Shown: in pieces, positions 38,618 through 52,545 of the stretch
How the letters are laid out: every line of letters starts with the position of its first letter
How positions within the stretch are numbered: position 1 is the first letter of the stretch
DNA from: an uncultured Neglectibacter sp.
GTDB taxonomy: Bacteria; Bacillota; Clostridia; Oscillospirales; Acutalibacteraceae
DNA: 64,000 nt
Assembly (NCBI GenBank): GCA_946554335.1
Contig: CAMNSA010000006.1
Location: 62,001-126,000, forward strand
Direction: 5' to 3'
Made by a program: the position numbers and the translations under genes
Notes under the pieces: generated by a model
The model's database searches: none
Told to the model about the DNA's origin: nothing
What the model saw: only the letters and a program-made list of their open reading frames with translations

Positions 38618-39499
38618 ATGAATTGGACGACATTTGACGAGGAGGCCGAGAGACTGCGGCTTTTGAATCTGCGGGTCTGGAAGGACGGAAAAGAAGTGCT
38701 TCGCAGGGACTATGACGCACAGATGCGCAGGAATCAGTATTCCGCCAGCAAAAGCTTTACCAGCGCGGCGGTGGGAATCGCTCAGAGGGAGGGCCTGCTT
38801 TCTCTGGAGGAGCCCCTGACGGAGGCCTTTCGGAACGAGCTTCCTTCCAATCCCTGTGAGAACCTGAAAAAGGCCACGGTGCGGGATCTGCTTACCATGG
38901 CTCTGGGTCAGGAAAAGGGATACCTGATGGGAGAACAGAGGCCCTTCTTAACGGAGAAGGACTGGGTGCGTTACTCCCTTGCCCAGCCCTTTCCCTACGC
39001 TCCGGGCAGCAAGTTTGTCTACAACAATGTGGGTCCCTACCTGGCGGGCGTCCTGGTGCAGCGCAGGGCCGGATGCGACCTTGTCCACTACCTGACGCCC
39101 AGGCTCTTTGAGCCTCTGGGGATCTCTCGCCCCACCTGGGAGCAGGATCCGATGGAATATAGCTTCGGGGCGGGAGGCCTGTTCCTCTCTGTCTCAGAGC
39201 TGGCGAAGTTCGGCCTTTTGCTTTTGCAGGGGGGAAGTTGGGAAGGAAAACAGCTGATCCCGGCGGACTACTTGAGAGAGGCCAGCAAAAAGCAGGTGGA
39301 AAACGGAAAAGAGGGGTATGGCTACCTCTTTTGGCGCGGGGCCAGGAATTCTTTCCGGGCAGACGGAAAGTATGGGCAGTTCGCCATCGTTTTTCCGGAC
39401 GACGGGGCCATGATTGCGGTAAACGCGGAGGCGAGAGACCAGGATGGTCTGCTCAACTTTCTGATGGAGTACCAGCCGGAGCTGATTTCAATGGCATGA
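38618..39499 (+). CDS. Serine hydrolase of the beta-lactamase/class C fold
   Basis: 293 residues, no signal peptide. SxxK is S42-A-S-K45 in QYSASKSFTSA and the Tyr motif is YNN (about 135) in FVYNNVGPYLAG. C-terminal FSFGAGG-like YSFGAGGLFLSV fits the fold. Such cytoplasmic proteins are often esterases or peptidases rather than resistance enzymes, so I do not call it a beta-lactamase. GGGAGGAAG precedes the ATG. A strong terminator follows. Confidence 0.88.
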   Translation: MNWTTFDEEAERLRLLNLRVWKDGKEVLRRDYDAQMRRNQYSASKSFTSAAVGIAQREGLLSLEEPLTEAFRNELPSNPCENLKKATVRDLLTMALGQEKGYLMGEQRPFLTEKDWVRYSLAQPFPYAPGSKFVYNNVGPYLAGVLVQRRAGCDLVHYLTPRLFEPLGISRPTWEQDPMEYSFGAGGLFLSVSELAKFGLLLLQGGSWEGKQLIPADYLREASKKQVENGKEGYGYLFWRGARNSFRADGKYGQFAIVFPDDGAMIAVNAEARDQDGLLNFLMEYQPELISMA

Positions 39500-40687: not shown

Positions 40688-40716
40688 TTGACATTATTTG
40701 GGCTGTGGGGTAAAAT
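40688..40716 (+). promoter_or_regulatory. Strong promoter of the Dlt-like operon
   Basis: TTGACA, 17 bases, TAAAAT, 224 bases before the ATG of the adenylation gene, leaving a long leader. Confidence 0.82.
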
Positions 40717-40722
40717 ACTCTA

Positions 40723-40939
40723 ATAGATTAGTAATTTGAGGCGAGGGGCCAAAGGCCTCTGGGAAGGACTCAGTTTCCGGCTGGGGACCGGCAGGAGGCA
40801 AATGAGATCACACCGCCGAAAGGCCGGAAAACGCCAGGTCGCTTCCGATGATAAGTCCCCGGGATTAGAAAGATAGATTCCCGCCATATTTATAGACGGC
40901 TTCGTTTTGCACGAGTTTTGGAAAGGATGATTCTCAGCT
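40723..40939 (+). promoter_or_regulatory. Structured 5' leader of the Dlt-like operon
   Basis: About 215 bases without an ORF. Helices: AGGGGCC-AAA-GGCCTCT (40744-40760), a GCC-GAAA-GGC tetraloop hairpin (40815-40824), and a long-range 8-bp pairing CTGGGGAC (40781-40788) with GTCCCCGG (40855-40862) that encloses it. CCGGC occurs twice (40778, 40788) and can pair with GCCGG at 40823. No T-tract terminator. A riboswitch or protein-binding leader is possible; I could not assign a class. Confidence 0.5.
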
Positions 40940-42469
40940 ATGGCGCTGCAGAAAAATGTGTTGGAATATCTGGAGGAGTCAGCGCGCCGGTATCCGGACA
41001 AGCTTGCCTTCACCGATGACAAAATAGAGCGCACCTATTCCCAATTTTTGCAAGAGGCTCAGCGGATCGGGACCATGCTGATCCACGAGGTGGACTGCCT
41101 GAATTCTCCCATCGCGGTTTTGGTGGACCGCAGAGTTTCCAGTCTGGAGGCCTTTTTCGGGATCCTTTTTAGCGGCAATTTTTATGTTCCGGTGGATAAC
41201 AAAATGCCCCGCCAGCGGGTGGAGGCCATGCTGGAAAAGCTTTCTCCGGCGGCGGTGCTCTATGACCCTCAGGACGAGCGCCTTGCCCTGGAATTTGCAG
41301 ACCGCTATCATCTGCTGTGCACGGAGAAAAAGGCCCTGTATGAGCCGGACGAGGCCCTGCTTGCCGGGCGGCGTTCACAGATTTTGGATATTGATCCGGT
41401 CTACACCATCTTTACCTCCGGCTCTACCGGCGTACCCAAGGGCATCGTGATCTCCCACCGGGCAGTGATCGATTTTATCGACTGGATGGCTTCTGCCTGC
41501 GGCATTATGCAGCAGGATGTTATGGGCAATCAGGCGCCCTTCTATTTTGACTGCTCTGTGAAGGATATTTATCTCACCATAAAATGTGGAGCGACTGCCC
41601 ATGTTTTGCCGAAAAAGCTGTTCGCTTTTCCCATTCTGCTGATGCAGTATCTCAGGGAAAAGCAGGTCACGGCGCTGATATGGGCCACCTCCGGCTTTAA
41701 TCTGGTGGCAAATTCCGGTGTGCTTCAAAAGCTGCCGCCGGAGCATGTGCGTCTGGTCGCGGTAGGCGGCGAGGCAATGCTGGCGAAGAATTTGAATATC
41801 TGGCGGCGGGCAATTCCGAACGCCGTGTTCTTTAATCTTTACGGCCCTACCGAGGTCACGGTGGACTGCACCTACTACCGGGTAGATCGGGAATTCCTGG
41901 ATACGGAGGCGGTGCCCATCGGCCGGCCCTGCGGGAACAAGGAGGTGCTGCTTCTGGACGAGACCCTGCGCCCTGTGGCGGACGGTGAGCCGGGAGAGAT
42001 TTGTGTGCGGGGTATCGGCGTAGCCAGGGGATATTATAATGATCCGGAAAAGACCGAAGCTGCCTTTGTACAGAATCCCAACCGGCCGTACTATCCGGAC
42101 ATCCTCTACCGCACGGGGGACATCGCCGTGCGAAACCTGGACGGCCTTTTGGTATTCCAGTCCCGAAAGGACGGCCAGATCAAGCACATGGGATATCGAA
42201 TCGAGCTGGGAGAGATTGAGCGGGCTGTCAGCGGCTTCTCCAAGATCCGGGAGAATTTCTGCTTTTATGACAGAGGGAAAGAACAGATCGTTTGCCTTTA
42301 TGACGGCGACGCCCAGGCGGAGGAAGTCATCCGCTATTTGGGGGATCTTTTGCCGAAATATATGTATCCCAATATTTTGGAAAAGAAAAGCTTGCTGCAC
42401 AACGCCAATGGAAAGATAGACCGCGCCCGGATGCAGGAGGAATATTTCCGTGGAAATCAGAAAAGCTGA
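40940..42469 (+). CDS. DltA-like adenylation enzyme (carrier-protein ligase)
   Basis: 509 residues, adenylate-forming family. Core motifs: FTSGSTGVPKGI (A3), NLYGPTEVTVDCTYY (A5), YRTGDIA (A7), GYRIELGEIERA (A8) and NANGKIDR (A10). NQAPFYFDCSVKDIYLTIKCGAT strongly resembles DltA, which charges D-Ala onto DltC. The Cys in the FCGE segment that helps DltA choose D-Ala is replaced by Gly (about residue 276, VAVGGEAM), so the substrate may differ. It activates a carboxylic acid, likely an amino acid, and loads the carrier protein encoded two genes downstream. AAAGGA lies 12 bases upstream. Confidence 0.85.
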   Translation: MALQKNVLEYLEESARRYPDKLAFTDDKIERTYSQFLQEAQRIGTMLIHEVDCLNSPIAVLVDRRVSSLEAFFGILFSGNFYVPVDNKMPRQRVEAMLEKLSPAAVLYDPQDERLALEFADRYHLLCTEKKALYEPDEALLAGRRSQILDIDPVYTIFTSGSTGVPKGIVISHRAVIDFIDWMASACGIMQQDVMGNQAPFYFDCSVKDIYLTIKCGATAHVLPKKLFAFPILLMQYLREKQVTALIWATSGFNLVANSGVLQKLPPEHVRLVAVGGEAMLAKNLNIWRRAIPNAVFFNLYGPTEVTVDCTYYRVDREFLDTEAVPIGRPCGNKEVLLLDETLRPVADGEPGEICVRGIGVARGYYNDPEKTEAAFVQNPNRPYYPDILYRTGDIAVRNLDGLLVFQSRKDGQIKHMGYRIELGEIERAVSGFSKIRENFCFYDRGKEQIVCLYDGDAQAEEVIRYLGDLLPKYMYPNILEKKSLLHNANGKIDRARMQEEYFRGNQKS

Positions 42470-43241
42470 AACCTGTGAAGAGGTCACAGACCTTGTGAAA
42501 AAGTGGTTTCGTCCGGGAGTATGCACGAATTTGTTTTTATCTGCCCAGGAACTGAAACGGGAAGCTGAGCTGGGAACGCTCTACTACGGCCTTTGGCCTC
42601 AGGGGTTCCTGCTTTTGCGGAAACGGGGGGGCTTTTTCCGAGGCGCGTATCAGTTTCTCCCCGGCGAGGCTTGTCCGAAGCTTCCCGATGAACTCCATGT
42701 GATTTTGGAGATCCCCGCGCGGCCGAAGGACAAAACCGTTCCCGAGGCCCGCGAGTTTTGGAAGTCAGGCGGGTTTACCCCGGTGCTGGAGCGTCTGCGG
42801 TATGCAAAAGATTTAAACAACACCCCGGACCTTTCCGCTCCGGAAGGGAAGATCGTGTCGGCAAAGGGAAAGCTTGTGGGAGAGGCGCTGTCCTTTCTGC
42901 AAGCGCATTTTGACCCTCTCACCGGCTGTCTGCCCAGCTTCGAGGAGCTTTCTCAGGATCAGGCGTTCTGCCTTTTAGACGAAGGGGGAGCGGTGGCGGG
43001 TGTGCTCCACGCCGCTTTCGGAAAAGCTTCTTCTGAGATCCGACACCTGGCGGTTCGTAAGGAGCTGCGGGGCAGAGGATACGGAGGAGAACTGATTCGT
43101 GCCTATGAGTCCCAATGCCCTTCCCCAAAAAGTCTGGTTTGGACCGGTAAGGAAAATTCCGCCGCCCGCCGTCTTTATGAAAAACGGGGGTATTCCCCGG
43201 ACGGCTGGACAGCGCTTGTGTTAGAACATGGAAAGGAATGA
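42450..43241 (+). CDS. GNAT family acyltransferase inside the Dlt-like operon
   Basis: 263 residues from GTG 42450, AGGAGGA seven bases upstream, overlapping the adenylation gene by 20 bases. The C-terminal half (about 150-263) is a GNAT domain with the acetyl-CoA loop VRKELRGRGYGGEL and ENSAARRLYEKRGY. The N-terminal half is not recognised but could be a second, degenerate GNAT domain. Classical dlt operons have no such gene. It could N-acylate the loaded amino acid or the carrier-bound group (inference). Confidence 0.82.
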   Translation: MEIRKAETCEEVTDLVKKWFRPGVCTNLFLSAQELKREAELGTLYYGLWPQGFLLLRKRGGFFRGAYQFLPGEACPKLPDELHVILEIPARPKDKTVPEAREFWKSGGFTPVLERLRYAKDLNNTPDLSAPEGKIVSAKGKLVGEALSFLQAHFDPLTGCLPSFEELSQDQAFCLLDEGGAVAGVLHAAFGKASSEIRHLAVRKELRGRGYGGELIRAYESQCPSPKSLVWTGKENSAARRLYEKRGYSPDGWTALVLEHGKE

Positions 43242-43247
43242 GTGGAA

Positions 43248-43469
43248 ATGAAGGAAAAAATTGAAGAGATCTTAAAGGAGCTTTGCCCCGGGATCGATCT
43301 GGAAAGCACGGAGATGATCGATGATGGTTTGATCGATTCCTTTGACATGGTGGCCCTTGTCAGTGAGCTGGTGGACGCCTTCGGTGTGGAGATCTCCGTG
43401 GAGGATATCATTCCCGAGAATTTCAACTCCGTCGACGAGATGGCCGCGCTAGTCGAAAGGCTGAAGTAA
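43248..43469 (+). CDS. DltC-like acyl/aminoacyl carrier protein
   Basis: 73 residues. The phosphopantetheine attachment Ser is S31 in DDGLIDSFDMVALVSEL, the DltC/ACP-type site; helices II and III are acidic (VEISVEDIIPENFNSVDEMAALV). GTG 43242 is an alternative start, two codons earlier. It should carry the acyl group from the adenylation enzyme to the MBOAT protein. The DltA-like and MBOAT genes flank it, as in dlt operons. Confidence 0.9.
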   Translation: MKEKIEEILKELCPGIDLESTEMIDDGLIDSFDMVALVSELVDAFGVEISVEDIIPENFNSVDEMAALVERLK

Positions 43470-43472
43470 GGG

Positions 43473-45029
43473 ATGGGGATCTTTTCTCTTTCCTACGCGG
43501 CCTTTGTGGCAGTTGGGCTTTTCGCTTACTATCTGATTCCCCAAAAGGCGCAGTGGTGCGTGCTGTTGGCTCTTTCCTGGGGCTTTTATCTTACGGCCGG
43601 ACCTCGGGCCATGGGCTATCTTTTGTTTGTGACGGCCTCCACCTACGCCGCCGCCCTTTTTCTGAATAAGCAAAACCGTTTTCTCAAAAGCCTTGGTAAG
43701 GAAGAGCGGGAAGCGTGCGCCCCTGCTGTAAAAAAGAAGAAGCGAGCCGCGGCTCTCCTGCTGATGCTTGCAAATTTCGGCTTGCTCTTTTTTGTGAAAT
43801 ACTGGGATTTCACCGCAGCGTCTTTTCAGCGGCTGGGGATCAGTCTGCCTTCACTCGGGCTGCTGGTCCCGCTGGGAATTTCCTATTACATGTTCCAGTC
43901 CGTGGGGTATGTGATCGATGTGTACCGGGGGAAGTATGATGCGCAGAGAAACTTTTTCCGGTACGCGCTGTTCGTGTCGTTCTTTCCCCAGATCATCCAG
44001 GGCCCTATCGGCAGATTTGACGCTCTGGCCCCTCAGCTCTTTGCACAGCGCCGCTTCTCCTTTGAGAATCTGAAATCCGGGCTTCAGCTGGCGCTTCTCG
44101 GGTGCCTGAAAAAGCTTGTGATCGCGGATCGTGCCGCGGTGGCAGTAGAGAAGATCTACGGGGATCATCAGGCCTACGGCGGCGTGATGATCGCCATCGG
44201 AGTGCTGTTTTACTGCATTCAGCTCTATTGCGATTTTTCCGGCGGCATCGATATCGTCAGAGGTGTGGGCAGGATGTTCGGAGTGGAGCTTACGGAAAAC
44301 TTCCGCCGTCCCATTTTTGCCCAGAGCCTTACGGATTTCTGGCGCAGATGGCATATCAGCCTGGGAGCCTGGATGAAGGATTATCTGTTCTATCCCATCT
44401 CGCTGTCTAAGCCGATTTTGAAATTCGGCAAGTTTTCCAGAAAGAAGATCGGCGGCCGTTTGGGCAAGATCCTGCCCACCTCTGTCGCGACCTTCCTCAT
44501 CTATTTCGTGATCGGTATCTGGCACGGTTCCAGCTGGAAGTACATTGCCTTTGGCTTCTATAACGGTATTCTCATCACCTCGGGTCTGCTTTTGGAGCCT
44601 CTTTTCTCCCGGGTGCGAGAAAAGCTATCCCTTACGGACGGACACAGGGGCATGAAAGTGTTTCGAACCCTGCGCACCTGCGTTCTGGTGTTTATCGGGC
44701 GCTATATCACCCGGGCAGGCAGCCTTCGCACCGGTGTTTCCATGCTTTGGAAAACGGTGAGGCACCCCATTCCGTCTCAGTTCCTGCAAGGAGGACTGTT
44801 CTCTTTGGGTCTTACCGGAGGAGATCTTTTGGTCGTCGGCGTGGGCGTGCTTCTTCTGCTGGTGGCGGAGTTTTTGGAGGAGCGCGGGAAAAGCCTCAGC
44901 GAGCGGCTGGATGAGAAGCCCTTTTGGGTTCAGTGGATCACTATGGCGCTGGGACTTTTTGTCCTGCTTTTGTTGGGCGTATTTCGGGGAGACTATATTT
45001 CCGCGGAGTTTATCTATCAGCAGTTTTAA
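43473..45029 (+). CDS. DltB-like MBOAT O-acyltransferase
   Basis: 518 residues with about 11 hydrophobic segments. The MBOAT motifs are TDFWRRWHISLGAWMKDYLFYP (H294) and GIWHGSSWKYIAFGFYNG (catalytic H351). MBOAT proteins of this type take the group from a carrier protein or CoA and pass it through the membrane. It starts three bases after the carrier-protein stop with only a weak SD, so translation is probably coupled. Confidence 0.93.
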   Translation: MGIFSLSYAAFVAVGLFAYYLIPQKAQWCVLLALSWGFYLTAGPRAMGYLLFVTASTYAAALFLNKQNRFLKSLGKEEREACAPAVKKKKRAAALLLMLANFGLLFFVKYWDFTAASFQRLGISLPSLGLLVPLGISYYMFQSVGYVIDVYRGKYDAQRNFFRYALFVSFFPQIIQGPIGRFDALAPQLFAQRRFSFENLKSGLQLALLGCLKKLVIADRAAVAVEKIYGDHQAYGGVMIAIGVLFYCIQLYCDFSGGIDIVRGVGRMFGVELTENFRRPIFAQSLTDFWRRWHISLGAWMKDYLFYPISLSKPILKFGKFSRKKIGGRLGKILPTSVATFLIYFVIGIWHGSSWKYIAFGFYNGILITSGLLLEPLFSRVREKLSLTDGHRGMKVFRTLRTCVLVFIGRYITRAGSLRTGVSMLWKTVRHPIPSQFLQGGLFSLGLTGGDLLVVGVGVLLLLVAEFLEERGKSLSERLDEKPFWVQWITMALGLFVLLLLGVFRGDYISAEFIYQQF

Positions 45030-45049
45030 GAGAGAGGAGGGCGATTGGA

Positions 45050-46915
45050 ATGGAAGAAAAGACAAAAGAGCTTATCTCTCCTGCCGGGAAAAATTCTGCC
45101 CGTCGGTGGTGCCTTGCCTTTTTTGCCACCCTTCTGCTGCTTTTGGCGGCGTTGTGCGTCTTTAATTTTCTTATAGACCCCTTCGGCGTGTTCGGCGACC
45201 CCATTTTTGACTGGTATTCCTATAACGAGACCAACAACCCCAGAGCGGCGAAAATCGCCTACCTGGAGAAGCACCATGAGGAGTATGACTCCTATATCAT
45301 TGGGGCCTCCTCCACCAGCTCTTTTTCCAAGGAAACGCTGGACAAGTATTTTGACGCGGATTTTTATAACCTCATCATGTATGGTTCCGATTTGCTGGAT
45401 GTGGAAAAGACCTGCGATTATGTGCTGGAGCATTACGAGGTCAAAAATTTGGTGATGAATGTCTTTATTTCTACGGGATTTCGGTATGACGAGCCCAACG
45501 ACGACCTCACCAACGCCCTGCACGAGAAGGTGAGCGGGGAGAATCCTCTGCTTTTTTATGGACGCTACCTTTTGATGAACCCGCAGTATTCCTTTGAGAA
45601 GCTGCGCGCCAGAAGAAACGATACCTATCTCTCTCAGCCCTTTGATGTGTTTGAGCCGGTTTCCGGCGCCTATGATAAGCGGGCGCGGGACGCAGAGCCC
45701 ATTGGAGATCTGGAAGGGTATCTGGAAAGCTACCCGGTATTTAAAAACTATCCTCAGTACGACAGGAAGATGGAGCATATTGACGACGCAGTGGACAGTG
45801 TAAAGCGCGTCAGTGAAAAGTGCCGGGAAAAGGGAGTGAATCTGCTGGTGGTGTCCGCTCCGGCCTACTATGAGAGCGTCCTGTGGTACGATAAGGAGGA
45901 TGTCAAGGAGTTTTATACCAAGCTTAGTATGGTAACTCCTTTCTGGGATTTTACCGTGAGCAGCGTGAGCCTGGAGCCCCGGTATTTCTACGATGAGACC
46001 CATTTCCGCAACGCAGTGGGGGATATGGCCCTGGCTAAGGTTTTCGGGGATACCGGCGTCTATGTGCCGGAGGACTTCGGCACTCTGGTTACAGAGGAAA
46101 ATGCGAGCGCCCATGTGGATAGCTTTTGGGAGCTGGAAGAGCGGATGGAGACCTATACGAAGGAGGTTCCCATTCTCCTGTATCACCATATTACGGAAGA
46201 CCCCAACGACAACGCTATCACGCCGCAGCAGTTTGAGAGACAGATGGAGCTTTTGAAAGCGGGAGGGTATGAGACGGTCACCTTTGATGAGATGATCGAC
46301 TATGTGGAAAAAGGGATGGAGCTGCCTCAGAAGGCGGTGTGTATCACCTTTGACGACGGCTATAAAAGCAACTACGAGATCGCCTATCCGATTTTAAAAG
46401 AATACGGAATGAAAGCGACCATTTTCGTCATCGGCTCCACAGTGGGAAACACAGAGCATTATAAGGACACGGACTTTCCCATCACCCCTCATTTCAACTT
46501 TGAGGAGGCCAAGGAGATGGTGGACTCCGGCGTGATTTCCATCCAAAGCCATACCTACGATATGCACCAGTGGGCTGACTACGAAACGGGGGAGAAGATC
46601 CGGAAAAATATCCTCAGGCTGGACGGGGAAACGGAAGAGGAATACAGAACAGCATTGCGGAACGATTTTACCCGCTCCAAAGAGGAGATCGAGCAGGGGA
46701 CGGGGGAGGAGGTCAATGTGCTCGCCTATCCCGGCGGAGAGTACAGCACCCTAAGTCAGGTGGTGCTCAGTTCTCAGGGGGTGAAGGCTACCCTTTCCAT
46801 CCGCCCGGGCAAGGCCGTTCTCGTCAAAGGCCTGCCCCAAAGTCTCTATGCCATGAGGCGGTTTTATATCCGGCCGGATACGGAGGAAAGTGAGTTTTTA
46901 GGCTGGCTTGAATGA
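45050..46915 (+). CDS. Fusion of SGNH/DltD-like domain with a PgaB/IcaB-type polysaccharide deacetylase
   Basis: 621 residues from the ATG with GAGGAGGG upstream. One N-terminal helix (about 22-44) anchors it outside. The first domain (about 60-340) has GASSTSSF with S87 as likely nucleophile and DETHF with D315/H318, an SGNH triad like DltD and AlgX/AlgJ partners of MBOAT proteins. The second domain (about 370-621) is carbohydrate esterase 4: TFDDG (D435, D436) and SHTYDMH (H501, H506; spacing of four as in PgaB and IcaB). So one protein may acylate and de-N-acetylate a surface glycan. Last gene of the operon. Confidence 0.85.
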   Translation: MEEKTKELISPAGKNSARRWCLAFFATLLLLLAALCVFNFLIDPFGVFGDPIFDWYSYNETNNPRAAKIAYLEKHHEEYDSYIIGASSTSSFSKETLDKYFDADFYNLIMYGSDLLDVEKTCDYVLEHYEVKNLVMNVFISTGFRYDEPNDDLTNALHEKVSGENPLLFYGRYLLMNPQYSFEKLRARRNDTYLSQPFDVFEPVSGAYDKRARDAEPIGDLEGYLESYPVFKNYPQYDRKMEHIDDAVDSVKRVSEKCREKGVNLLVVSAPAYYESVLWYDKEDVKEFYTKLSMVTPFWDFTVSSVSLEPRYFYDETHFRNAVGDMALAKVFGDTGVYVPEDFGTLVTEENASAHVDSFWELEERMETYTKEVPILLYHHITEDPNDNAITPQQFERQMELLKAGGYETVTFDEMIDYVEKGMELPQKAVCITFDDGYKSNYEIAYPILKEYGMKATIFVIGSTVGNTEHYKDTDFPITPHFNFEEAKEMVDSGVISIQSHTYDMHQWADYETGEKIRKNILRLDGETEEEYRTALRNDFTRSKEEIEQGTGEEVNVLAYPGGEYSTLSQVVLSSQGVKATLSIRPGKAVLVKGLPQSLYAMRRFYIRPDTEESEFLGWLE

Positions 46916-47111: not shown

Positions 47112-47187
47112 GCTGCTATGGCTCAGGTGGTAGAGCACATCCTTGGTAAGGATGAGGTCTCCAGTTCGAATCTGGATAGCAGCTCCA
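47112..47187 (+). tRNA. tRNA-Thr (GGT)
   Basis: 76 bases with encoded CCA. Acceptor GCTGCTA/TAGCAGC, anticodon stem CATCC/GGATG with loop TTGGTAA (anticodon GGT), T arm TCCAG-TTCGAAT-CTGGA. Its 3' 23 bases are repeated twice downstream. Confidence 0.96.
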
Positions 47188-47347
47188 GAAAGCGCTGTAC
47201 TTGTTATGAGTACAGCGCTCTTTGTTTTTTAGGGAGACCTCATCCTATCGCCGTGAAAACGGCGGGGGTTTGGGGCGCAGCCCCATGTTATTCAGGGGAA
47301 GAAGCGAAGCTTCTTCCAAAAGGTATCGCAGATACCTTTTTTCCAGC
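47165..47347 (+). repeat. 183-bp tandem unit, copy 1
   Basis: The unit starts with the last 23 bases of tRNA-Thr (T loop to CCA), then the terminator, then four short-loop hairpins: CGCCGT-GAAA-ACGGCG (47249-47264), TGGGGC-GCA-GCCCCA (47271-47285), GGAAGAAGC-GAA-GCTTCTTCC (47297-47317) and AAAAGGTATC-GCA-GATACCTTTT (47318-47340), the last also a terminator. Confidence 0.93.
47191..47230 (+). terminator. tRNA operon terminator
   Basis: AGCGCTGTAC pairs with GTACAGCGCT, then CTTTGTTTTTT. An exact copy lies at 47374-47413. Confidence 0.92.
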
Positions 47348-47530
47348 TTCGAATCTGGATAGCAGCTCCAGAAAGCGCTGTACTTGTTATGAGTACAGCG
47401 CTCTTTGTTTTTTAGGGAGACCTCATCCTATCGCCGTGAAAACGGCGGGGGTTTGGGGCGCAGCCCCATGTTATTCAGGGGAAGAAGCGAAGCTTCTTCC
47501 AAAAGGTATCGCAGATACCTTTTTTCCAGC
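47348..47530 (+). repeat. 183-bp tandem unit, copy 2
   Basis: Identical to copy 1 over its full length as far as I can read. The only difference is just outside: the T arm reads CCAGC-TTCGAATCTGG instead of CCAG-TTCGAATCTGG at the junction, so the tRNA part here is a fragment, not a working tRNA. Confidence 0.93.
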
Positions 47531-47553
47531 TTCGAATCTGGATAGCAGCTCCA
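47531..47553 (+). repeat. Third copy of the tRNA-Thr 3' end (23 bp)
   Basis: TTCGAATCTGGATAGCAGCT plus CCA, after which the sequence diverges. It marks the left edge of the accessory segment with the type III system and looks like an attachment-site core. Confidence 0.88.
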
Positions 47554-47807: not shown

Positions 47808-50687
47808 ATGCTTTATCAGATGATTGCGAACGCCCGTGACCGCTGGCTTCGGTCCGCTGGCTGTACCGTTACGGATTTGCTCGGGTACATCATGAGAACA
47901 GGACAGCTGCGTGACGCGCAGATGGAAGCTGTTAAGACCTATCTTTTTTTAAAAATCGAATGCGGCACGAAAGCCTTGGCGGAATTGTTTTGTGAAGGCA
48001 AGTTTAACAGCCTGGATCTCAATACGATCCCGCTGACTCCGCTTTCCCATGATTTCCTTTTTTCTCATCCGGAAGCAGCAGCGCTTCTGGAGTATTCTCT
48101 TTTGAAAAATGATAAAGGGGAACAGGTATCCGAAAAGCTGGCGGAAGAGCTGAAAGCGGTTCCGGAAAGCGTGGATGCGAAGGGCTTCTTCCAAAAAGCC
48201 TTTTATGGAGTTTCCTATACAGACTATCTTTTCAGCCTTCCCATGGGAGCCGGAAAAACCTATCTGATGGCGGCTTTTATTTACCTTGATTTGTACTTTG
48301 CCCAGCAGGAGCCGGAAAACCCCGTTTTTGCTCACAATTTCATTATTTTTGCTCCTTCCGGTTTGAAATCTTCTGTAGTGCCGAGCCTGAAGACGATCCA
48401 GAATTTTGACCCGGAATGGGTGATCCCGCAGCCTGCCGCCTCGCAGATCCGGCGGATGCTGTGCTTTGAGGTGCTGGATCAGGGAAAAACGGCCAGTAAA
48501 TCCAATAAGACGAAAAATCCCAATGTTCAGAAAATCGCCAATCACCAGCCGCTCTCTGAGCTTTTCGGTCTGGTAGCTGTTACAAATGCGGAAAAGGTGA
48601 TACTGGACCGTATCAATGAGAAACAGGGCCAGCTTTCCCTTTATGAAGAGAGCGATGATGAGCGGGATCGACAGGCTAACGAGCTGAGAAATCTGATCGG
48701 CAAGCTGCCCGCTCTCTCTGTTTTTATCGACGAGGTGCATCACGCAGTGAGCGAAGAGATCAAGCTGCGCGCCGTTGTCACAGCGTGGGCGCAAAACGGC
48801 ACGGTAAATTCCGTGATCGGTTTTTCCGGCACGCCCTATTTGGAGAAGGCGGAAAAGATTCAGGTTACAGATTCTCTTTCTGTAGGGACGGCTGAGATCG
48901 CCAACGTCGTCTATTACTACCCTTTGGTGGACGGCGTGGGGAATTTTCTCAAAAGCCCTGTGGTGAAAATTGCGGAGACAGCGGACCGGGAAAGGATCAT
49001 AGAAAACGGCGTCCGGGAATTTCTGAACGCCTATCAAAATACCGTATATCAGGACGGAACGACCGCCAAGCTGGGGATCTACTGTGGGACCATTGAAGCT
49101 TTGGAGGAAACGGTGTTTCCTCTTGTCTCCCGTGTCATGGGAGAGTATGGGCTTCCTGTCGGCTGTGTTTTGAAGTTCCACAAAGGCAATAAGCGATATC
49201 CTCAGCCTGCGGACAGTCAAATGCAGTTTGACACGCTGGACAAGCCCATTTCTCCCATTCGCATCATTTTGCTGGTGCAGATCGGCAAGGAGGGCTGGGA
49301 TTGCCGCAGCCTGACCGGAATCATTCTTTCTCAGGAGGGCGACTGCCCCAAAAATATGGTGCTGCAAACCTCCTGCCGTTGTCTGCGGCAAGTGGATAAG
49401 GGAAAGCATGAGACAGCCTTGATCTATCTTAACAGCGTCAACGGGGAGAAGCTGATCGCTCAGCTTCAGCAGCAGCACCACATCTCACTGGAAGAGTTTT
49501 CTTCGGGAAGCTCCAATTTCGTGAAGCTGAACCGCTATGACAGGACGAAATATTTAAAGCTTCCCAAAGTGGATTTCTATCAGCTGAAGGTCAGCTTTGA
49601 GACCGTTATAGAGCAGGAAGCCGATCCGGAAAAAGAGATCCCCAATGCGGTGGTCAAGATAGCGGGAAGTGTGGTGAAACGAACGGACTTTTCTCTGGAA
49701 AATATCGCCCATGAGGTGGACGACACAGAGCGGGGAAGAGAGCTGGCGGTGTTTTCTCAGTGGATTTACCGCCTTTCCCGCAGCAGCTTTGGTCTGCTCA
49801 CCATGGAACAGCTTGCGGCTTTTGAAGACGCCTTAAAAGAAGTTTTTGACGCCATCACCTATGAGGGAGAAGAGGGACGGCGATATTTCAGCTCCCGATA
49901 TGACAGAGCGGAGGTAGAGGCGAATATCCGAAAATCTTTCTGTGGGAAAAGAAGCTTTGAAACCAAAACAGAGCGGATCCCGGAGGAAGCGTCTTTGCTG
50001 AATATTTCTCATTTTTCTTCCGCTGTTTATGCTCGGAATATCGAGGAGTATTTCCCGGGGCAGGATACGGTAGAGAGGATCGTGCTGGACGACAAAGGCA
50101 GGTTCAAAAGTAAGCCGGAAATCGAAGCGGCCATTCATTCTCTGGAAGCGGACGGCAGCGAGGCAAATCTGGCCATTGCAAAACAGCTCCGGGCGCAAAC
50201 TGTTTCCCATCCCCAGAAGGACCGTTCCTTCCATTATCTCCCTTACCATACAGACAGCCGCTTTGAGCAGACCTTTTTGCAGGAGGTGCTGCCTTTGCCG
50301 GAGGTGGAGCGGTTCGGCCTGGAGGTCTACTACAACGGCGATCGTGCTATGACGGAGTTTAAAATAAAGTGCTACAGCTCCGCCGGACATGGCTGGAATT
50401 ATATCGGAATGTATACCCCGGATTTTCTTGTGATCCAGCGAAAAGGCGGGAAAATCCATAAGGCGTTGATCGTGGAGACGAAGGGAAAAATCTACGCCAA
50501 CGATCCGACCTTTCAGGATAAACGGATGTTTGTGGAATCTGAGTTTTTAAGGCAGAACAACGCCGCCTTTGGCTATGAGCGGTTTGAGTATCTGTATCTG
50601 GAGGACTCCATGCCGGAGCAGGAACGGATCGTCAAGACACATGAGAAAATTCAGAAGTTTTTTGAGGAGGCAAACCATGCCCATTAA
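47808..50687 (+). CDS. Type III restriction enzyme Res subunit (helicase-nuclease)
   Basis: 959 residues. The superfamily 2 helicase part has Walker A PMGAGKTYL (about 145) and DEVHH (about 307), with SGTPYLEKAE (motif III) and GWDCRSLTGIILS. The C-terminal PD-(D/E)xK nuclease shows YTPDFLVI and VETKGKIYAN (about 870-890). It is an ATP-dependent restriction subunit that works with the Mod methylase. GAAGGAG precedes the ATG. It lies upstream of mod, the reverse of the usual mod-res order, and overlaps it by 11 bases. Confidence 0.9.
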   Translation: MLYQMIANARDRWLRSAGCTVTDLLGYIMRTGQLRDAQMEAVKTYLFLKIECGTKALAELFCEGKFNSLDLNTIPLTPLSHDFLFSHPEAAALLEYSLLKNDKGEQVSEKLAEELKAVPESVDAKGFFQKAFYGVSYTDYLFSLPMGAGKTYLMAAFIYLDLYFAQQEPENPVFAHNFIIFAPSGLKSSVVPSLKTIQNFDPEWVIPQPAASQIRRMLCFEVLDQGKTASKSNKTKNPNVQKIANHQPLSELFGLVAVTNAEKVILDRINEKQGQLSLYEESDDERDRQANELRNLIGKLPALSVFIDEVHHAVSEEIKLRAVVTAWAQNGTVNSVIGFSGTPYLEKAEKIQVTDSLSVGTAEIANVVYYYPLVDGVGNFLKSPVVKIAETADRERIIENGVREFLNAYQNTVYQDGTTAKLGIYCGTIEALEETVFPLVSRVMGEYGLPVGCVLKFHKGNKRYPQPADSQMQFDTLDKPISPIRIILLVQIGKEGWDCRSLTGIILSQEGDCPKNMVLQTSCRCLRQVDKGKHETALIYLNSVNGEKLIAQLQQQHHISLEEFSSGSSNFVKLNRYDRTKYLKLPKVDFYQLKVSFETVIEQEADPEKEIPNAVVKIAGSVVKRTDFSLENIAHEVDDTERGRELAVFSQWIYRLSRSSFGLLTMEQLAAFEDALKEVFDAITYEGEEGRRYFSSRYDRAEVEANIRKSFCGKRSFETKTERIPEEASLLNISHFSSAVYARNIEEYFPGQDTVERIVLDDKGRFKSKPEIEAAIHSLEADGSEANLAIAKQLRAQTVSHPQKDRSFHYLPYHTDSRFEQTFLQEVLPLPEVERFGLEVYYNGDRAMTEFKIKCYSSAGHGWNYIGMYTPDFLVIQRKGGKIHKALIVETKGKIYANDPTFQDKRMFVESEFLRQNNAAFGYERFEYLYLEDSMPEQERIVKTHEKIQKFFEEANHAH

Positions 50688-52545
50688 ATATATTCCCTTC
50701 ATCCCGGAGCCCATTGAGGGGCAGGCGGTTCTGGGCAATTTCAACCGGATCCTGAAATACCGGGGCGCGGACGATGTTTCTATGACGCTTCAGCGGGGGA
50801 TGCCCCTCTATGAGCTAGAGAAGCAGGAGACCGTGGGGAAAAATGCTGACGGCAACATGGTCATTCGCGGCGAGTGCGTTTCCTCCTGCGCCTACTTAAA
50901 GGAACAGGGCATCCAGATGGATCTGGTGTACATCGACCCGCCCTTTGCCAGCGGTGCAGACTATGCCAAAAAGATCTATATCCGCCGAAATCCCAAGGCA
51001 GTGGAAGCTATTTCTCAAGCGGAGCAGGAGTTGGACATTGAGGAACTGAGAGCCTTTGAGGAAAAGATGTACGGCGACGTGTGGGACAAGGAGAAATATC
51101 TCAACTGGATGTATGAAAACCTGATGGCCATCAAATCTGTCATGAGCGAAACAGCTTCCATTTATGTACATCTGGATTGGCATATCGGGCACTATGTGAA
51201 GATCCTGCTGGATGAGATCTTCGGGGAAGACCATTTCCGCAACGAGATCATCTGGTACTATGACGATAAATTCGCCACCGGCGGGAATTCCTTAGACAAA
51301 AACCATGATTTGATTTACCTTTATTCCAAAGGCGACGGCTGCGTGGAAAACCCCTATCTGATCCCCAAGGATGAGGTCAGCAAACGGGCGCTTAGGCAGA
51401 AGGTGAACGGCAAAACGGTGGACGTTCGGGATGAGGACGGCAATAAAATCATGGTGGAGTATTCGGAAAAGCGGATCGACGATGTGTGGTGGATCCCCAG
51501 AACGATATCCAAAAATCACAGCGAGAACTATGCAACCCAAAAGCCTGAGGAGATCCTGAAGCGGGTGATCTCCCACTCCTCCGATCCCGGGATGCTGGTG
51601 GCGGATTTTTTCGGCGGAAGCGGTACGGCGGCCGCCGCGGCTCACAAGCTGGGCAGACGGTTCCTGCACTGTGACGTCAGCCTAAATTCCATCCAGACTA
51701 CCCGGGACCGGTTAAAAGCGGCCGGGGCAGAGTTCAGCGTTTTAGAGATTAAGGACGGCGTGCAGCTCTATCGCAACCCGGTGCAGACTATGGAAAAGAT
51801 CAAATCGCTGATCCCGGGGCTGAAAAAGACGACCTCGCTCTCTTCCTTCTGGGCAGGAGCGATTTCAGACAGTAAGCTGGGGACGGTGCCGGTCTATGTG
51901 CCGAACCTGCTGGACAGCTTTTCCAAGCTGCTGGACGAGGTGACGGTGAACCGAATCCTCCATCAGGAGATTCCGGATCTCCCGTTTTCCGTCAAAAAGG
52001 TGATCGTCTACTATATCGATATCGCTGGACGGAAGGAGATCGAGGCGTTTATCCGGGAGAACGACAGCACGGCGGTGGAGCTTGAGCTGCGGGATTTGAA
52101 AGAGGTTCTGGACGATGTTGTGATGGGGGATTACGCGGAATTTCACATGGAGGAGGCCCGTGACAGCCTGTACGGCGGTTATGCTCTCTTGATAGACAAA
52201 TTTCTCAGCGACCAGGTGATGCGGGAAATCCGTGAGTTTAACCGAAAAGGTCAGATCAGCTCTACAAAGAAAAAGTCCTTTCAGCCTATTGTAATCAGCG
52301 AGGAGGGATTGGAGCTGATTGAATACATGAGCGTAGATTGTACCGCCTCTGAAGGCGAATGGTATTCAGACAGCGAGGTCAAAATCGATAAGCTGGGCTA
52401 TGTCATCGGAAGTGACGGGAAAACAAAAAAATTCTGGGACGGAACGATCAGAAGCGAAAAATATCCCCTGCGGTTAAAGATCCGGAATATCTGCGGGGAC
52501 GAGACGGTTTGGCCGGTAGACGATCCACTGGCAAATATGAAGTGA
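50677..52545 (+). CDS. Type III DNA-methyltransferase Mod subunit
   Basis: 622 residues from the ATG with GAGGAGG seven bases upstream. Beta-class adenine-N6 methylase order: motif IV DPPF (D87, variant of DPPY) first and the SAM motif ADFFGGSGTAAA (about 310) second. The region between and after them (about 110-290 and 400-600) should hold target recognition. It methylates one strand of an asymmetric site to protect it from Res. No repeat tract for phase variation was seen in the gene. Confidence 0.9.
   Translation: MPIKYIPFIPEPIEGQAVLGNFNRILKYRGADDVSMTLQRGMPLYELEKQETVGKNADGNMVIRGECVSSCAYLKEQGIQMDLVYIDPPFASGADYAKKIYIRRNPKAVEAISQAEQELDIEELRAFEEKMYGDVWDKEKYLNWMYENLMAIKSVMSETASIYVHLDWHIGHYVKILLDEIFGEDHFRNEIIWYYDDKFATGGNSLDKNHDLIYLYSKGDGCVENPYLIPKDEVSKRALRQKVNGKTVDVRDEDGNKIMVEYSEKRIDDVWWIPRTISKNHSENYATQKPEEILKRVISHSSDPGMLVADFFGGSGTAAAAAHKLGRRFLHCDVSLNSIQTTRDRLKAAGAEFSVLEIKDGVQLYRNPVQTMEKIKSLIPGLKKTTSLSSFWAGAISDSKLGTVPVYVPNLLDSFSKLLDEVTVNRILHQEIPDLPFSVKKVIVYYIDIAGRKEIEAFIRENDSTAVELELRDLKEVLDDVVMGDYAEFHMEEARDSLYGGYALLIDKFLSDQVMREIREFNRKGQISSTKKKSFQPIVISEEGLELIEYMSVDCTASEGEWYSDSEVKIDKLGYVIGSDGKTKKFWDGTIRSEKYPLRLKIRNICGDETVWPVDDPLANMK

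Follow-up and report, generated by a model that had tools for sequence, protein, structure and literature searches.

A five-gene cassette for putative carrier-dependent surface acylation, with an added GNAT and an SGNH-like/CE4 deacetylase fusion, in an uncultured Neglectibacter sp.

A five-gene operon of the carrier-MBOAT-SGNH kind

We analyzed a five-gene cassette of an uncultured Neglectibacter sp., located on a 64,000-nt stretch of contig CAMNSA010000006.1 (the window, to which all coordinates refer). The cassette is real, is of the carrier-MBOAT-SGNH kind, and appears to be undescribed. Its genes, all on the + strand, encode a stand-alone adenylation enzyme, a GNAT N-acetyltransferase, a carrier protein, an MBOAT, and a fusion of an SGNH-like domain with a CE4 polysaccharide deacetylase. 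The features are as follows:

40688-40716, + strand: sigma-70-type promoter match, TTGACA-17-TAAAAT, 11/12 consensus positions (consensus match only)
40717-40939, + strand: 5' leader of about 220 bases, the sequence between the promoter match and gene 1
40940-42469, + strand: gene 1, stand-alone amino acid adenylation enzyme, code DCKIAGLVDK (PF00501, TIGR01733, 1AMU alignment)
42450-43241, + strand: gene 2, GNAT N-acetyltransferase with an extra N-terminal half and a GTG start (PF00583 above cut-off)
43242-43469, + strand: gene 3, phosphopantetheine carrier protein, attachment Ser33, alternative start 43248 (PF00550 above cut-off)
43473-45029, + strand: gene 4, MBOAT with the C-terminal acyl-shuttle motif FIYQQF, Tyr515 (PF03062 above cut-off)
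45050-46132, + strand: gene 5, N-terminal part, membrane anchor and SGNH-like transferase domain, Ser87/Asp315/His318 (motifs, hydropathy, profile comparison)
46133-46915, + strand: gene 5, C-terminal part, CE4 polysaccharide deacetylase, PgaB/IcaB-like, Asp435/Asp436/His501/His506 (PF01522, PgaB structures, motifs)

The genes for the adenylation enzyme and the GNAT overlap by 20 bases, the later intergenic gaps are 0, 3, and 20 bases, and gene 5 (45050-46915) encodes a product of 621 residues. These positions confirmed that the five neighboring genes form one tight operon, in agreement with the original prediction. Its description of a Dlt-like arrangement (adenylation enzyme, carrier, MBOAT, SGNH-like protein) with an additional GNAT and a CE4 domain in the last gene was also supported. 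Its claim that the gene order matches dltABCD was incorrect: the canonical order is adenylation enzyme-MBOAT-carrier-SGNH, whereas the order here is adenylation enzyme-carrier-MBOAT-fusion. In line with the view that no characterized system has this exact set, we found no description of it in the open-access literature.

Conservation of the gene order

Relatives were collected with the SGNH-like domain as the sole query against a single genome for each species, which yielded 294 stretches and 164 relatives, 80 of which were kept. The SGNH-like/CE4 fusion is present in all 80 loci. A six-frame recount found the order adenylation enzyme-GNAT-carrier-MBOAT-fusion in 53/80; a count based on open reading frames gave 38/80, with some carriers and GNATs masked by longer reverse frames. 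Because the order recurs in 53 of the 80 loci, the five-gene set is far from chance, and the search for it in other genomes that had been proposed with the original prediction thus recovered it. One further locus (L125) encodes the same five in order, with the GNAT and carrier in one frame. Nine loci keep the adenylation enzyme, carrier, MBOAT, and fusion without a GNAT, six have the order MBOAT-fusion-carrier, two have fusion-carrier, four are cut at the contig start, and five show single patterns (L152, L155, L189, L192, and L197).

A search of 391 class genomes with the adenylation protein gave matches at E <= 1e-75 in 80, and the neighborhoods of 40 matches were fetched. Five contained the adenylation enzyme, GNAT, MBOAT, and SGNH-like/CE4 fusion in order, with the carriers of two of these loci recognized on the same contigs at a later stage. 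Another (L082) had a GNAT and a separate SGNH-like protein without CE4, and the other 34/40 had no GNAT match. Two or three tandem adjacent adenylation genes also occurred among the matches (G445, G501, G648, G681, G698, G733, G750, and G732).

Named organisms carrying the cassette include Evtepia gabavorous, Ruminiclostridium hungatei, and Agathobaculum butyriciproducens. The nearest cassette (L119) is from an uncultured Neglectibacter, and its adenylation enzyme is 82% identical. Within the family sample, the cassette is almost lacking: GNAT matches were found in 2/398 family genomes, namely the source genome and one with a weak match (24%, E 7.8e-7) that lies outside such a cassette within its 2.4 kb. 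The five other genomes of the same genus that were searched had no GNAT match, and the other matches of the fusion protein among 300 family genomes were to its CE4 half only.

The flanks of the 80 loci comprise 521 genes. The largest cluster is found at 10/80 loci (an ABC-ATPase by eye) and the next at 7; the only system-like clusters are FkbH and its carrier, at 7 loci each. No polymer-synthesis neighbor recurs beside the cassettes among these 521 genes.

Adenylation enzyme and carrier protein

The product of gene 1 matches PF00501 (226 bits) and exceeds the TIGR01733 cut-off (341.7 vs 317.4). Its code was mapped on 1AMU and compared across 54 adenylation sequences from five-gene loci, in which row L086 looks misaligned. 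Loci L079/L120, L080/L150, and L081/L168 lie pairwise on the same contigs, making three repeats within these 54 rows and likewise within the 85 fusion loci considered below. Asp235 and Asp331 are present in 54/54 rows, Lys517 is invariant, and Lys239 occurs in 51/54 (R in two, Q in one). At position 301, the window has Gly and the 54 rows have G (43), A (10), or S (1), whereas DltA (3E7W), for which the same alignment reads DLMTMCTVA, has Cys. The conservation of Asp235 and Lys239 points to an amino acid of the acidic or amide type as the substrate, and away from D-Ala. The original prediction had allowed an amino or other carboxylic acid, a range that the code would narrow accordingly.

Lys239 together with Gly301, Val330, and Asp331 corresponds to the pattern of the surfactin A1 domain, whose code DAKDLGVV is predicted to specify Glu/Asp in PMC10548584. 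The code DAQDLGVVDK serves both Glu and Gln, according to PMC12283262. For the exact code DAKDLGVVDK, the open-access literature offered no support beyond the partial match in PMC10548584. The window code agrees with the glutamate code at 5/9 positions, and at two positions each with DltA and with an Asp code. Glutamate is possibly the loaded acid, the code likeness being modest and suggestive, no more. Among sister cassettes that lack the fusion, an Asp/Glu racemase is present at 20/35 loci and a pyridoxal phosphate (PLP)-dependent decarboxylase of the DapDC/ODC fold at 3/35, a context that loosely fits an acidic substrate; either enzyme is found in 0/85 fusion loci.

The carrier protein matches PF00550 (28.8 bits), and its attachment Ser33 is kept in 62/62 sequences. 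The acyl donor is accordingly predicted to be carrier-bound, as in the Dlt type.

GNAT

The GNAT matches PF00583 (43.2 bits in the window), as do 50/50 members of its family. The acetyl-CoA loop residues R207 and G210 are present in 48/50 and 46/50 members, respectively. In addition, 49-50 of 50 members retain Asn27, Arg115, Arg117, Trp231, and Tyr243, which could form an acid-binding pocket. In profile searches of the PDB, the closest relatives were GNATs of a generic kind (6wqb, E 3.2e-12). The L125 fusion hints that the GNAT acts on the loaded residue, and is the one hint, from 1/80 loci, for the N-acylation that had been suggested earlier. We tentatively place the GNAT on the carrier-bound residue, because its gene lies between those of the adenylation enzyme and the carrier, because of this fusion, and because of the conservation of Arg115, Arg117, Asn27, Trp231, and Tyr243.

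MBOAT

The MBOAT matches PF03062 (65.1 bits) and aligns to the DltB structures 6BUG/8JEM. Its C-terminal acyl-shuttle Tyr515 is kept in 73/73 MBOATs; the first position of the surrounding motif is F in 68 and Y in 5, and the last is F in 48, Y in 15, and I in 10. His351, which aligns with the catalytic His of DltB, is found in 68/73. As described in PMC12148441, the acyl group is carried by the C-terminal Tyr of PatA and by the Tyr of DltX in the Dlt pathway. The same source distinguishes the Dlt pathway, with a carrier donor and the shuttle Tyr on DltX, from non-Dlt MBOAT-SGNH pathways, which use an acyl-CoA donor and no carrier and have the shuttle motif on the MBOAT. The cassette appears to join both designs, in that a carrier donor is combined with an MBOAT-borne shuttle Tyr.

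The cassette thus shares with O-acetylation systems of the PatA/PatB and AlgI/AlgX types an MBOAT with a C-terminal FxYxxF-type motif and a partner of the SGNH kind, which is a separate protein in those systems. They use acetyl-CoA and no carrier (PMC12148441), whereas here an adenylation enzyme, a GNAT, and a carrier precede the MBOAT, and the SGNH-like partner bears a CE4 domain. The source genome also encodes two AlgI-like MBOATs with an FxYxxF-type C-terminal ending.

SGNH-like/CE4 fusion protein

The CE4 identity of the C-terminal half, as judged from its profile match (PF01522, 93.5 bits, residues 425-579) and motif, is secure. In 78 fusion proteins, Asp435 is present in 78/78, and Asp436, His501, and His506 in 77/78 each. 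The best models for this half are PgaB (TIGR03938, 134.1 bits vs a cut-off of 321.9) and IcaB, and the best PDB match is 4u10. The protein resembles PgaB/IcaB in this domain and its motif residues, and differs from them in scoring below the equivalog cut-offs and in being fused to an SGNH-like domain. The PgaB-like character speaks for a polymer of N-acetylglucosamine (GlcNAc) in general.

The N-terminal half has one membrane anchor by hydropathy (residues 24-42) and the motifs GxS87, N107, and D315-x-x-H318, with Ser87, Asp315, and His318 present in 77/78 proteins each. In profile-profile comparison with the SGNH-like proteins of sister cassettes, a 6-row profile gave a match of 96.9% over 279 columns; the 78-row profile gave 85% over only 44 columns. 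The SGNH/GDSL families of Pfam gave no match on this half (0 among 31 members). We refer to the domain as SGNH-like, on the basis of its motifs and remote profile similarity. In the L197 fusion protein, the SGNH-like motif residues are lost (G-P, N, C) and CE4 is kept, and no MBOAT, carrier, or adenylation enzyme match was found within the 15.3 kb stretch. A dependence of the SGNH-like domain on the MBOAT would predict this pattern.

Exchange of the loading enzymes

A tree of adenylation proteins, built by a quick method and without bootstrapping, places every five-gene row in a single group of 62 (support 91, not starred), within which there are a few GNAT losses. The GNAT-less fusion loci L184, L188, L194, and L198 instead join the lineage with the PLP decarboxylase (98, starred). 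FkbH is found beside 8/85 fusion loci, all 8 without an adenylation enzyme match; in L190 and L192 it scores above its NCBIfam cut-off. In polyketide pathways, proteins of the FkbH family charge carriers with glyceryl-type groups. From the tree placement and the FkbH loci without an adenylation enzyme, we conclude that a single family of outer proteins is paired with three or more loaders: an adenylation enzyme plus GNAT, a second adenylation lineage without GNAT, and FkbH.

At L171, L183, L185, L186, L190, L191, L192, and L195, FkbH and mostly a carrier stand in place of the adenylation enzyme beside the fusion, as a putative loader of the glyceryl type.

The sister cassettes of Clostridia (racemase-adenylation enzyme-carrier-MBOAT-SGNH) have a homologous adenylation enzyme, carrier, and MBOAT, with 39-47% identity of the adenylation enzyme in the rows fetched. 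They differ in having no GNAT, no CE4, and a separate SGNH protein. In the sister racemase cassettes (L085-L117), the presumed nucleophile of the SGNH-like protein is Cys (GDCE), not Ser, in 18/23 aligned proteins. At L112, L115, and L118, adenylation enzyme-carrier-MBOAT cassettes have a DapDC/ODC-type PLP decarboxylase between the adenylation enzyme and the carrier.

Promoter, leader, and neighboring genes

The original prediction placed the operon behind one strong promoter. The match at 40688-40716 is present, with 11/12 consensus positions; a scan found 9 promoter-like sites vs 5.9 (sd 2.3) in shuffles, and the site is a consensus match and no proof of a promoter. A riboswitch in the 5' leader was considered and set aside, as there was no sign of a regulatory RNA: Rfam gave no match at gathering score and sub-threshold chance matches only, and the folding z was 0.14. 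Upstream of related adenylation genes, no conservation extends past the start codon, save for one 19-base match in L188.

Rhamnose utilization genes lie upstream of the operon in the window, and two tRNA genes followed by a type III restriction-modification pair (47808-52545) lie downstream. Given these flanks, the neighbors do not name the target of the operon. Base composition gave no sign of recent transfer (cassette genes 0.50-0.56 GC, window 0.527), although the cassette is so rare in the family sample.

Two further features were observed nearby. At 47112-47553, three copies of the 3' end of a tRNA-Thr gene (23 bases) lie 183 bases apart, with an exact 183-base duplication. The repeats directly precede the type III restriction-modification pair, and the arrangement looks as if a tRNA gene had been the site of repeated integration. 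At 38618-39499 lies a gene for a beta-lactamase-fold protein whose nearest model is 3-succinylated cholic acid synthase (164 bits vs a cut-off of 800), of which it would be a distant relative only.

Proposed pathway and target

What is seen directly is the set of genes with its conserved order, the catalytic motifs, and the loader swap in related loci; from these we infer each of the chemical steps that follow, together with the identity of the acyl group, its ester linkage, and the polymer that is targeted. The adenylation enzyme would activate an amino acid, with glutamate as the likeliest candidate and glutamine or aspartate as further possibilities, and load it onto the carrier, where the GNAT would N-acetylate the bound residue. 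The MBOAT would then transfer this acyl group through the membrane to the Tyr in the FxYxxF motif at its own C terminus, a relay proposed because acyl-Tyr intermediates are known from DltX and PatA (PMC12148441). With the shuttle Tyr on the MBOAT, no DltX would be needed. The membrane-anchored SGNH-like domain would take the acyl group from the Tyr to its own Ser and form an ester on a cell-surface polymer, and the CE4 domain of the same protein would de-N-acetylate amino sugars of that polymer or of a neighboring one. That the cassette is a self-contained, carrier-dependent surface acylation pathway with all of these steps as proposed seems to us about as probable as that one or more of them differ.

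Several observations weigh against this pathway. The SGNH-like half gave no match better than E 0.1 in a PDB sequence search, and its profile match to DltD was negligible (8.3% and 16.7%). At L123, the CE4 motif is lost and the other parts are kept, so the two activities can part. His351 is replaced by Gln in 5/73 MBOATs, all of the GNAT-less second lineage (L184, L188, L194, L196, and L198), where the C-terminal Tyr is retained, and His294 is replaced by Asn in the 7/73 MBOATs of FkbH-type loci. The glutamate assignment has the 5/9 code match noted above, the GNAT-carrier fusion is a single case from a metagenome-assembled genome, and nine loci dispense with the GNAT.

The last two points also bear on a variant in which the same pathway operates and the GNAT acts on a free amino acid or in a separate role. 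This placement would accord with the nine loci that keep the adenylation enzyme, carrier, MBOAT, and fusion without it, and membership in the GNAT family does not by itself tell the substrate. The position of the gene between those of the adenylation enzyme and the carrier in 53/80 loci, and its fusion to the carrier in one, argue against it, and we consider the variant possible and rather unlikely.

Peptidoglycan is the target that we find most natural, with at best an even chance of being correct, because no consistent polymer-synthesis neighbor travels with the cassettes. It would also explain why a poly-N-acetylglucosamine (PNAG) synthase (0/7) and a teichoic polymerase (2/7) are missing from most of the carrier genomes tested. 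Alternatively, the operon could be a PNAG cassette of the PgaB/IcaB type, in which CE4 would trim PNAG and the acyl group would be attached to this exopolysaccharide as well. The best matches of the CE4 half, to the PgaB (TIGR03938, 134 bits) and IcaB models and to PgaB structures in the PDB, agree with this possibility. However, the score is far under the PgaB cut-off (134/321.9 bits), a PgaC/IcaA synthase is above cut-off in 0/7 carrier genomes (weaker glycosyltransferase matches occur in 7/7), and no synthase recurs beside the cassettes; a PNAG cassette is therefore improbable.

The fusion protein might also be an extracellular N-acyl exchanger, in which CE4 strips acetyl from an amino sugar and the SGNH-like domain acylates the freed amine to form an amide, with swapped loaders providing glutamyl-, N-acetyl-glutamyl-, and glyceryl-type groups. 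The loader swap itself is supported at the gene level; the exchanger as a whole we consider improbable. The Nod factor enzymes NodB/NodA, which combine a CE4 deacetylase with carrier-dependent fatty acylation of a GlcNAc-type sugar, are cytoplasmic and have no MBOAT or SGNH protein, and their likeness to the cassette is an analogy only.

Canonical teichoic acid D-alanylation by diverged proteins is very improbable. DltA, DltC, and DltB, a known carrier-MBOAT route, are among the best NCBIfam matches of the adenylation enzyme, carrier, and MBOAT, and the source genome has a teichoic-polymerase-type protein (PF04464). These matches nevertheless fall below cut-off (DltA 276.7/559.85, DltC 35.5/68, DltB 152/375 bits), position 301 is Gly instead of the Cys of 3E7W, and PF04464 was found in only 2/7 carrier genomes tested. 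Neither gene 5 nor any other part of the source genome matches DltD (PF04914), which was found in 5/118 class genomes and in the controls B. subtilis and L. lactis. A canonical dlt operon was also rejected, as nothing encoded in the source genome reaches the DltA cut-off and the cassette adenylation enzyme is the best match. The cassette resembles the Dlt pathway in its stand-alone adenylation enzyme, carrier, MBOAT, membrane-anchored SGNH-like protein, and acyl-Tyr shuttle principle, and differs in its adenylation code, gene order, extra GNAT, CE4 fusion, and MBOAT-borne shuttle motif.

A small nonribosomal-peptide-like natural product pathway without surface modification is the least credible alternative: the adenylation enzyme passes TIGR01733, a model for nonribosomal peptide synthetase adenylation domains, but the five genes have no condensation or thioesterase domain, and the last two encode a membrane acyltransferase with a shuttle Tyr and a membrane-anchored deacetylase.

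Implications

Surface acylation and N-deacetylation are each separately known to protect peptidoglycan from lysozyme. The proposed pathway, if correct, would tie acylation to N-deacetylation within one protein. It would represent a surface-acylation platform of Clostridia from the gut and rumen, a group with little-known envelope chemistry, in which an exchangeable loader sets the acyl group.

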